Of a stretch of DNA of 64,000 nucleotides, positions 47,105-49,307 are shown piece after piece. Made by a program: the position numbers and the translations under genes. Positions within the stretch are counted from its first letter, which is position 1, and each line of letters begins with the position of its first letter. Source of the stretch: Kitasatospora xanthocidica (lineage in GTDB: Bacteria > Actinomycetota > Actinomycetes > Streptomycetales > Streptomycetaceae). Below the pieces are notes generated by a model that was not told the origin of the DNA, did no database searches, and was given only the letters and a program-made list of their open reading frames with translations. The stretch spans positions 304,396-368,395 of the forward strand of contig NZ_BNBY01000008.1 in NCBI RefSeq assembly GCF_014656195.1, read 5' to 3'.

Positions 47105-47515
47105 TCACCCCAGGGCGTAGACGGTGGTGGCGTGGGCGGCGGGCTCCTCGGCGCCCTCGGGGGTGAGGGTGATGTCGAGGAAGGCGATCCGGCGGCCGAG
47201 CTTGGTGATCCGGGCGTGCACCAGGACGTCCTGGGCGAGGACCGCGCGCTGGAAGGTGGTGGACTGCTGGACGGTGGTCATCGGGCCGAAGCCGCCGCGG
47301 GCCGCCGAGAGGGCGATCACGCAGGCCGTGTCGGCGGCGGCCATCAGGGCCTGGCCGGAGAGTCCGCCGCCCTCCCGGGCGAGCCGGTCGGACCAGGGCA
47401 GGCGCAGGACGGCGTGCTGTTCGCCGGTCTCGACGGCGGCCAGCCCGAGAGCCTGCACCCAGGGGGCGAAGTGGTCGGCCAGGAGCTTGTCCGCCTCGGC
47501 GGTGGTGAGGGTCAT
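47105..47515 (-). CDS. PaaI-family (hotdog) thioesterase
   Basis: A 136-residue hotdog-fold protein: VETGEQHAVLRLPWSDRLAREGGGLSGQALMAAADTACVIAL, with the GG-LSG..L..AADTA helix typical of PaaI, then VQQSTTFQRAVLAQDVLVHARI. It probably hydrolyses aromatic or short acyl-CoA. It lies 32 bases after the TetR gene and is likely co-transcribed. Confidence 0.88.
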   Translation of the reverse strand: MTLTTAEADKLLADHFAPWVQALGLAAVETGEQHAVLRLPWSDRLAREGGGLSGQALMAAADTACVIALSAARGGFGPMTTVQQSTTFQRAVLAQDVLVHARITKLGRRIAFLDITLTPEGAEEPAAHATTVYALG

Positions 47516-47547: not shown

Positions 47548-48174
47548 TCAGGAGCTCGGCGCGGCCAGGGTGTCGAGGTGGCGGCGGAGCACCGCGCGCA
47601 GCTCGTCCGGGCCGACCAGGGCGGGGTGCTGGACGGCTTGCAGGGTGAGGCCGTCCAGCAGGGCGGAGAGCCGGCGGGTCTCGATGTCGAGGTCCAGCCC
47701 GGGGGCGAGGCCGCCGGCGCGGACGGCTTCGGCCAGGACGCGTCGGACCAGCGCGTCCAGGCCGGTCTGCATCTCGGCGGCGCGGGGCCGGAGTTCGGGG
47801 CGGGTGCGGGCGGCGGTGACGAAGGAGAGCCAGAGCGCGGACTCCTCCCGGCGCGCGGTGTCCAGCGGGAGGATCTCGGCGAGCAGGCGCGTGGTCTGTT
47901 CGCGGCGGTCGGTGCCGGGGGCCGGGGCCGGGTCGAGCAGGGTGTGGGCGTGGGCGCGGATGCGGGTGTCGATCCGGCGGGCCAGCTCCTGCATCGCGAA
48001 GATCATCAACTCGGAGCCGCCGGCGAAGTAGTGCCGCACCGAGCCGATCGCGAGCCCGGCCTCCTCGGCGACGTTGCGCAGCGAGGCGTGTTCCAGGCCC
48101 TCCCGGGCCGCGACGCGCAGCACGGCGTCGGCGACGGCCTGGCGGCGTTCCACGGGGTCGACGATCTTCGGCAT
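47548..48174 (-). CDS. TetR-family transcriptional regulator
   Basis: A 208-residue repressor: HTH in the first 50 residues (AVLRVAAREGLEHASLRNVAEEAGLAIGSVRHYFAG), then a helical C-terminal ligand domain of the TetR_C type (LDALVRRVLAEAVRAGGLAPGLDLDIETRRLSALLDGL). It is divergent from a DUF1453 gene over a region with two matching operator sites, so it probably represses both directions. Confidence 0.94.
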   Translation of the reverse strand: MPKIVDPVERRQAVADAVLRVAAREGLEHASLRNVAEEAGLAIGSVRHYFAGGSELMIFAMQELARRIDTRIRAHAHTLLDPAPAPGTDRREQTTRLLAEILPLDTARREESALWLSFVTAARTRPELRPRAAEMQTGLDALVRRVLAEAVRAGGLAPGLDLDIETRRLSALLDGLTLQAVQHPALVGPDELRAVLRRHLDTLAAPSS

Positions 48175-48184
48175 GTTGCCGTTA

Positions 48185-48227
48185 TAGCACGGGTGAGCTA
48201 AATTGCTGATTTAGCACAGTCGAGCTA
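48185..48227. promoter_or_regulatory. Two TetR operators, TAGCAC-N4-GAGCTA
   Basis: The 16-bp sites are TAGCACGGGTGAGCTA (48185-48200) and TAGCACAGTCGAGCTA (48212-48227), 27 bases apart. They are nested in a larger AT-rich dyad, TTATAGC..GCTATAA (48182-48230), with GCTAAAT-N5-ATTTAGC at its centre. All lie between the TetR ATG and the divergent gene. Confidence 0.75.
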
Positions 48228-48245
48228 TAAAAATCGGGGGCAGGA

Positions 48246-48758
48246 ATGAGCAGCTGGGTGTACGTGACGCTGGTCGTCGCCGTGATCGTCGTGGTGGTGG
48301 TCCGCAGGCTGCGCGGGGAACCGCTGAACGTCCGCGACCTCTGCGCTCCGCCGGTGGTGCTCACCGGCCTCGGCCTGTGGGCGCTGTGGCAGCGGCACGG
48401 TCTCGGCGCGGGCGACTACGCCTGGGTGGCCGCGGGTGCCGTGCTCGGCGTCGCACTGGGCGTGGCGCGCGGCACCACCATCCGGGTCTACGAGCGCGAG
48501 GGGGTGCTGTGGCAGCGCTACACCGGCCGGACCTTCCTGGTGGCGGCGGTCTCGCTGGCGGTGATGGCCGGATTCGCCGCGCTCGCCGGGCGCAACGGCC
48601 TGGCTCCGGACGCCCGCCCGGTCCAGCTGTCGATCGGGGTCGGCTTCCTGGGGGAGGCGCTGGTGGTCGGCCTGCGCGGGCTCGCCTCGGGCGTCCCGTT
48701 CGCCCCCGAGCGGCCGGTTGCCGGCTCGTCGTTCGGGTTGGACCGATTCCGGCGGTAA
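48246..48758 (+). CDS. DUF1453-like integral membrane protein
   Basis: A 170-residue protein with about four helices (WVYVTLVVAVIVVVVVRRLRGEPLN; YAWVAAGAVLGVALGVARG; FLVAAVSLAVMAGFAALAG). The RRLRGEPLNVRDL and G-x-x-R-G-x-T-x-x-RVYER-G segments fit the DUF1453/CcdC-like family. Function unknown. The TetR operators sit directly before its ATG, so it is the probable target. Confidence 0.75.
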   Translation: MSSWVYVTLVVAVIVVVVVRRLRGEPLNVRDLCAPPVVLTGLGLWALWQRHGLGAGDYAWVAAGAVLGVALGVARGTTIRVYEREGVLWQRYTGRTFLVAAVSLAVMAGFAALAGRNGLAPDARPVQLSIGVGFLGEALVVGLRGLASGVPFAPERPVAGSSFGLDRFRR

Positions 48759-48798
48759 CTTTGGTTGTCAAAGGCGGATGCGGTAACTATGGTTGTCA
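48752..48798 (+). repeat. 28-bp spaced direct repeat GCGGTAACTwTGGTTGTCA
   Basis: Two 19-base copies (48752-48770 and 48780-48798) differ at one base. The first contains the TAA stop of the DUF1453 gene; the second ends two bases before the next ATG. Each holds AAC-N4-GTT, a possible half-operator pair. Confidence 0.75.
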
Positions 48799-48800
48799 CC

Positions 48801-49307
48801 ATGACGACCGTGGAGATCACCCATGAGGAGCGGGCGGAGCTGGCCAAGGCCCTCCTCGGCGCGCTCGACCCCCTCGCCGTCGCCGTCCGCACCCGGGCGA
48901 CGGGCCTGCCCGAGGAGCGGATCTGGCACGCGGAGCCGGCCGAGGTCGCTCTCTCCGTCCTGTCCGCCTGGAAGCTGGTGGACACCGAGGTCAAGCGGCT
49001 CACCGCGATCGCGGCCGCCACCGCCGGCTCCTACGGCGCCAGCTACGAACAGCTGGGCGCCGCCTGGGGCATCACCCGGCAGGGCGCGCGGAAGAAGTGG
49101 CCGGAGGCGGTCAGCCGCCCGGCGGGGCGCCCCGGCTCACTCGAACTGTTCGGTGGAACCGCCGAGTTGACCTCGGACGGGGCCGAAGGCGGCTGGCGCT
49201 GGACGGCCACGGGTGCGGACGGGGAACGCGGCGGGTCCACCACCGGCCATCCGACCCGGGAGGAGGCGGCGGCGCACGCCGGGGCCTTCCTCGCCGGGCA
49301 CGCGTAA
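48801..49307 (+). CDS. HTH-containing protein of unknown function
   Basis: A 168-residue protein. A likely helix-turn-helix is seen at SYGASYEQLGAAWGITRQGARKKWPEAV (about 78-105). The N-terminal 70 residues are helical; the C-terminal 60 are strand-like (GGWRWTATGADGERGGST). It may be a regulator controlling itself through the repeats before its start. ATG 48801 is chosen; ATG 48789 is inside the repeat. No ribosome site, so possibly leaderless. Confidence 0.62.
   Translation: MTTVEITHEERAELAKALLGALDPLAVAVRTRATGLPEERIWHAEPAEVALSVLSAWKLVDTEVKRLTAIAAATAGSYGASYEQLGAAWGITRQGARKKWPEAVSRPAGRPGSLELFGGTAELTSDGAEGGWRWTATGADGERGGSTTGHPTREEAAAHAGAFLAGHA

Follow-up and report, generated by a model that had tools for sequence, protein, structure and literature searches.

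Paired candidate operators at the divergent promoter of a TetR-type regulator in Kitasatospora are conserved among actinobacterial relatives

Introduction

TetR-family genes of Streptomyces that lie less than 200 bp from a divergently transcribed neighbour most likely regulate that neighbour, according to the accessible part of PMC3511530. A described system of this layout is that of EilR from Enterobacter lignolyticus, for which the accessible part of PMC6127294 reports two operators, eilO1 and eilO2, between eilR and a pump gene, one of the two being embedded in both promoters, and base contacts made by Arg32 and His47 (structure 5vl9). A solved relative of the regulator studied here, EbrR (3hta, 'EbrA repressor'), has entry titles that refer to multidrug binding and to imidazole and proflavin complexes. 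BetI, the choline-responsive repressor, provides a third point of comparison.

Here we analysed a divergent tetR locus of Kitasatospora xanthocidica within a stretch of 64,000 nucleotides (the window), for which an earlier note had proposed paired TAGCAC-N4-GAGCTA operators. Judged against what is accessible of the two papers, the 71-bp intergenic gap falls within the <200 bp range of the Streptomyces pairs (PMC3511530), and the locus resembles the EilR system in combining a TetR-type repressor, a divergent membrane-protein gene and two intergenic palindromic operators (PMC6127294). It differs from that system, whose operator is 24 bp long and of other sequence and whose partner is an efflux pump.

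Results

The regulator (Table 1) carries the same C-terminal domain as BetI, with a PF13977 score of 90.4 bits against a cut-off of 27, while its N-terminal helix-turn-helix scores just below threshold (PF00440, 22.8 versus 24 bits). Unlike BetI, it falls far short of the TIGR03384 equivalog cut-off (62.2 versus 201.3 bits), and the five neighbours scanned here are not bet genes. An AlphaFold model built from 28 sequences (mean pLDDT 93.2) has nine helices and matched 331 PDB entries at E≤0.001, the matches listed all being regulators of TetR type. By profile, the nearest solved relatives are two Rhodococcus proteins, 2gfn and 2np5, with EbrR (3hta) and EilR (5vl9) ranking below them. EbrR, fourth by sequence and sixth by profile among solved relatives, shares 33% identity with the window TetR in the fold alignment; the EilR–operator structure is sixth among the fold matches of the model, at 22% identity. 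The recognition helix spans residues 43–49 of the model, with Ala42 just before it. By analogy with EilR Arg32 and His47, which correspond to Arg33 and His48 here if the chain is numbered as in the accessible part of PMC6127294 (the sequence match is one residue off, query 8–66 to chain 7–65), these two residues are likely base contacts; each is kept in 90% or more of the 28 rows. In the open-licence literature we found no paper naming this actinobacterial TetR group or describing its membrane partners, and the accessible part of PMC3511530 does not describe it.

Table 1 Features of the divergent tetR locus, in window coordinates
Feature	Position	Strand	Description
Hotdog thioesterase (4HBT)	47105..47515	-	32 bp downstream of tetR
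TetR-family repressor (predicted), 208 aa	47548..48174	-	BetI-type C-terminal domain TetR_C_6 (PF13977)
Extended -10 of tetR promoter (predicted)	48189 down to 48181	-	TGC-TATAAC; site 1 outer half and next four bases
Candidate operator site 1 (tetR-proximal)	48185..48200	-	TAGCACGGGTGAGCTA
-35 of divergent gene (predicted)	48203-48208	+	TTGCTG; weak, 3/6; 17-bp spacer to TATAAA
Candidate operator site 2 (partner-proximal)	48212..48227	+	TAGCACAGTCGAGCTA
-10 of divergent gene (predicted)	48226-48231	+	TATAAA; overlapped by site 2
Divergent membrane protein, 170 aa	48246..48758	+	No family assignment (Pfam, NCBIfam)

The two 16-bp sites with 12 fixed bases lie where the earlier note had placed them, 27 bp apart from start to start with a gap of 11 bp. 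A scan of the whole 9,266,420-base genome, which that note had suggested, found the exact TAGCAC-N4-GAGCTA pattern confined to this promoter, in two copies at 48185–48227; two further variants with one mismatch occur elsewhere in the genome. The half-sites TAGCAC and GAGCTA are near complements (a perfect dyad needs GTGCTA), and each site is therefore an imperfect palindrome. The copies extend to a 25-nt direct repeat of 76% identity, and inverted arms of 22 nt with 82% complementarity span the pair because each site is itself a degenerate dyad. Counted outward from the 2-bp centre, the second base is G in the operator here and in that of EilR alike. Two operator look-alikes with two mismatches each, 51 bp apart, were also seen in the same genome (C1:328015–328081).

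The sites had been described as lying in the only AT-rich patch nearby. This does not hold: the GC content is 0.48 at 48160–48219, but 0.50 at 48760–48819 as well. Within the second patch (48754–48798), GGTAACTWTGGTTGTCA occurs twice exactly, as a 17-bp direct repeat 28 bp from start to start, just before a gene at 48801 (chance expectation 0.01). This gene encodes 168 aa with no Pfam or NCBIfam match at E≤0.01 and has homologs at the same position in several relatives; the 16-base core of the repeat is absent from all other genomes among the 70 of the genus.

Orthologs of the regulator at 80–89% identity were found in 12 of the 69 other genomes of the genus, with matches at E≤1e-30 in 46 of 394 genomes of a family sample and matches by profile in 30 of 396 genomes of a phylum sample. 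We scored 57 of the listed loci (58 rows less the duplicate L063), using a matrix built from the two window sites alone and 300 dinucleotide shuffles per locus. In 49 of the 56 other loci, two sites, each reached by at most 1 in 300 shuffles, lie upstream of tetR (50 of 57 with the window included), and such two-site loci reach down to approximately 42% TetR identity. Site 1 alone was found at two of the 57 loci: L049, where no membrane-gene homolog was found in the examined stretch, a point in favour of the switch, and L022, which keeps a membrane gene without site 2 and so counts against it. Neither site was found at five (L027, L028, L029, L043 and L085), which likewise counts against the switch; L027–L029 are distant paralogs at 31–36% identity, and L085 and L043 are at 38% and 63%. 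At L043, from one family genome, both operators are gone and tetR is immediately preceded by the membrane gene's 3' end; the intergenic region is thus rearranged, a natural rearrangement of the switch.

Adding 29 loci from the phylum sample gave 86 in total, with two strong sites (score ≥15) in 59, one in 9 and none in 18. The last group includes distant paralogs as well as L111 and L114–L119, and 13 of the 29 phylum loci have no strong site, which also speaks against a switch. The conserved set yields the consensus TAGCACG-N2-CGTGCTA, a 16-bp dyad. The motif of the earlier note is thus exact at both window sites, but it is one clade's degenerate form of this consensus: GAGCTA is the degenerate right half of the Kitasatospora/Streptomyces clade, in which position 12 of site 1 holds A, G or C, with T in none of 28 rows (L009–L022, L039–L042 and L044–L053). 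Across 70 genomes of the genus, TAGCACNNNNGDGCTA gave 18 matches, in 12 genomes, and comparison with the coordinates of the ortholog search put all 18 genus-wide matches of TAGCACN4GDGCTA at this promoter; a reversed control pattern gave 37 scattered matches (summed over columns) in the 70 genomes.

A lack of conservation upstream of orthologous tetR genes had been named as evidence against the paired operators. The sites are conserved there, which supports the pair, and a candidate operator is conserved among orthologs at both promoters, as expected of an autorepressed divergent switch. Both sites are real and deeply conserved, and they are most likely bound by the repressor, one at each promoter.

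The position of the sites relative to the predicted promoters is also conserved. At 64 of the 68 loci, site 1 begins 9–11 bp away from the start codon of tetR (at 10 bp in 56), and its outer half also serves as an extended -10 (TGNTANAA) that is nearly invariant in 57 aligned site 1 rows. Read in the direction of tetR, the outer half and the bases that follow are G-T-G-N-T-A-N-A-A in nearly all of these rows (counts in order, N omitted: G 56, T 56, G 57, T 54, A 57, A 53, A 56), with T(+11), G(+12), T(+14), A(+15), A(+17) and A(+18) in site 1 numbering and the start codon at +26. In rows with the 10-bp distance, the start codon begins 12 bases after the first T of the -10, from which we infer a leaderless tetR mRNA whose predicted +1 in the window is the A of the ATG at 48174. 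Site 2 has a similar outer edge, with T in 46 of 59 rows, then A in 59, any base, and A in 49, 49 and 50. The -35 boxes are weak, which counts against the reading as a switch, and a sigma-70 consensus scan listed neither promoter at site 1 or site 2. Spacing from site to site ranges from 22 to 43 bp (26–27 in 33 of 59 loci), so that no fixed helical phase between the sites is needed.

The divergent gene had been assigned to the DUF1453 membrane proteins. We rejected DUF1453/CcdC (PF07301, cut-off 24.6 bits) as a name: the window protein has no match at E≤0.01, matches at E≤1 (best 0.0083) come from four of the 21 aligned homologs, which do not include the window protein, and a scan of the whole own genome returned nothing at E≤10. 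The control scan gave a signal in three of 14 control genomes, one of them over the cut-off. A model of the protein (21 sequences, pLDDT 82) shows five long helices with a beta-hairpin between the third and fourth, and has no PDB match at E≤0.001. The proposed control of this gene by the regulator is itself well supported by position, site 2 being placed on its -10-like box.

We compared the residue before the recognition helix with the operator sequence. At the loci that have one strong site or more, position 42 is occupied by Ala 34 times, by Ser and by Asn 16 times each, and by Val and by Thr once each. With Ala, 128 of 130 half-sites have G at base 3; with Ser, 49 of 56 have G; and with Asn, 61 of 64 have T. 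Under a looser score, which admits chance sites, G stands at base 3 in 135 of 142 half-sites with Ala, the 122 half-sites with Ser divide into 74 with G, 27 with T and the rest with other bases, and those with Asn again have T in 61 of 64. The scoring weights G and T equally at base 3 and disfavours C; the G/T split is therefore not forced by the scoring. The loci with Asn rather than Ala or Ser belong to a sister clade with TATCAC half-sites. When the helix columns were left out of the tree, Asn42 still formed one clade (SH-aLRT 97) that arose by one change, and no independent repeat of the link between Asn42 and T at base 3 was seen on this tree, so the link rests on one event; other residues changed along with Asn42.

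The gene opposite tetR varies more than the operators do. A homolog of the window membrane protein is the divergent gene in most of the window's clade and at L064, whereas the Asn clade carries a short protein of approximately 75–110 residues with one hydrophobic stretch (by eye). The divergent gene is, or resembles, a membrane protein of approximately 180 residues at L025 and L081–L084 (by eye) and at L105–L107, L110, L113 and L124 (tblastn); the L081, L105 and L113 partners have no Pfam match at E≤0.01, only a weak 2TM hit at L113. Single loci carry membrane proteins of Sap type (PF11139, L109), DUF418 (L112) and VC0807 type (L080). All of these swapped-partner loci keep two operators except L107, which has one. 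This suggests that the divergent partner was replaced by unrelated membrane proteins with the operator layout mostly kept.

On the other side of tetR, the thioesterase (PF03061, 42.7 bits versus a cut-off of 20.6) had been proposed as a further target. It adjoins tetR in six of 13 Kitasatospora orthologs (L009, L011, L013, L015, L016 and L017) and therefore lies outside the conserved unit. In longer flanks of L054, L055, L059, L060 and L061, a CBS-domain gene follows tetR within approximately 200 bp instead. The thioesterase has no operator of its own, and in this strain its control could at most come from transcription reading through from tetR. Nor did we find targets beyond the locus: in three whole-genome scans, loose patterns showed no excess over reversed controls (51 versus 163, 1156 versus 1814 and 10 versus 10 matches). 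One candidate second target, TATCACAGGCATGATA at C14:46884, was rejected; it precedes a TetR paralog with relatives that have a GTATCATG-type motif in common.

Upstream DNA of paralogs was inspected by eye at 12 loci (L027–L038), for four paralogs of the same genome, taken from 14 further matches to the regulator, and for 16 from other genomes. The TAGCAC pair was absent upstream of all paralogs inspected. Several groups with other recognition helices have a repeated upstream motif of their own, and in some paralogs, L030, L032 and L140 among them, no repeated motif was visible. The group with helix AGVSLRLVQYYF (L134, at C14:46884, with L033, L034, L037, L038, L139, L147, L148, L152 and L153) has a recurring upstream motif resembling GTATCATG...GTGATACACATGTA.

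Discussion

The sites, their conservation and spacing, their overlap with -10-like boxes and the absence of exact copies elsewhere in the genome are computed observations. What we infer is binding, repression, the transcription start sites, a ligand and a role for the membrane protein. The locus is very probably a TetR-type repressor switch that acts locally and on its own gene, each of the two promoters having one operator. A TetR dimer would bind each 16-bp dyad (consensus TAGCACG-N2-CGTGCTA), site 1 covering the extended -10 of tetR, whose mRNA would start at or next to the ATG, and site 2 covering the -10 of the membrane-protein gene. Bound repressor would then block RNA polymerase from both promoters until a small-molecule ligand, perhaps hydrophobic or cationic by analogy with multidrug-binding EbrR and EilR, released it and both genes were upregulated. 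Repression rather than activation is assumed from the TetR family. The mechanism is textbook TetR, a well-documented and ordinary kind of local gene switch, and the analysis provides a well-defined candidate operator, its predicted regulator and a promoter predicted to be inducible for this actinobacterial TetR group and its unassigned membrane partners.

Two dimers binding together, as in QacR, could instead occupy both sites jointly, making the pair a single cooperative operator for both promoters. The two sites do form a larger inverted repeat, and both are present in 59 of the 68 loci that have any; EilR likewise has two (PMC6127294, accessible part). We nevertheless consider this arrangement unlikely, as the distance between the sites, 22 to 43 bp, follows no fixed helical repeat and L049, L107 and L022 have one site each. 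It is quite improbable that the regulator acts more widely, on the thioesterase and on genes elsewhere: the thioesterase gene does follow tetR after 32 bp and two one-mismatch sites lie elsewhere in the genome, but across 70 genomes the clade motif has no match off this promoter, at seven of the 13 close orthologs no thioesterase gene was found beside tetR, and another TetR paralog is what follows the TATCAC-type site at C14:46884.

That a different regulator uses the sites, or that they are promoter elements alone, with TetR binding elsewhere, seems very improbable indeed. Part of the conservation (TGNTANAA) is promoter-like, yet it extends over the two half-sites of each dyad and to bases beyond the -10 boxes, base 3 of the half-site varies with TetR clade, and the motif tracks tetR even opposite unrelated divergent genes.

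Residue 37 of TetR can alter operator preference, and we take it to be the equivalent of residue 42 here. We regard as possible, if somewhat doubtful, a history in which the single residue 42 (Ala or Ser versus Asn) changed operator specificity (G to T at base 3, in all four half-sites of the promoter at once) and partners were swapped for unrelated membrane proteins, with the layout and the leaderless repressor promoter kept. The Asn and Ala/Ser clades offer a natural system in which to study how a TetR repressor changes its DNA code.

At L111 and L114–L119, tetR homologs stand opposite a short gene, and their intergenic regions have a different sequence in common, TATAACGANCGTCCGAAATAAA-like in several (by eye). 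The short gene of L116, the sole one tested, is a small multidrug-resistance (SMR) gene, a hint that the wider family may have a role with multiple drugs.
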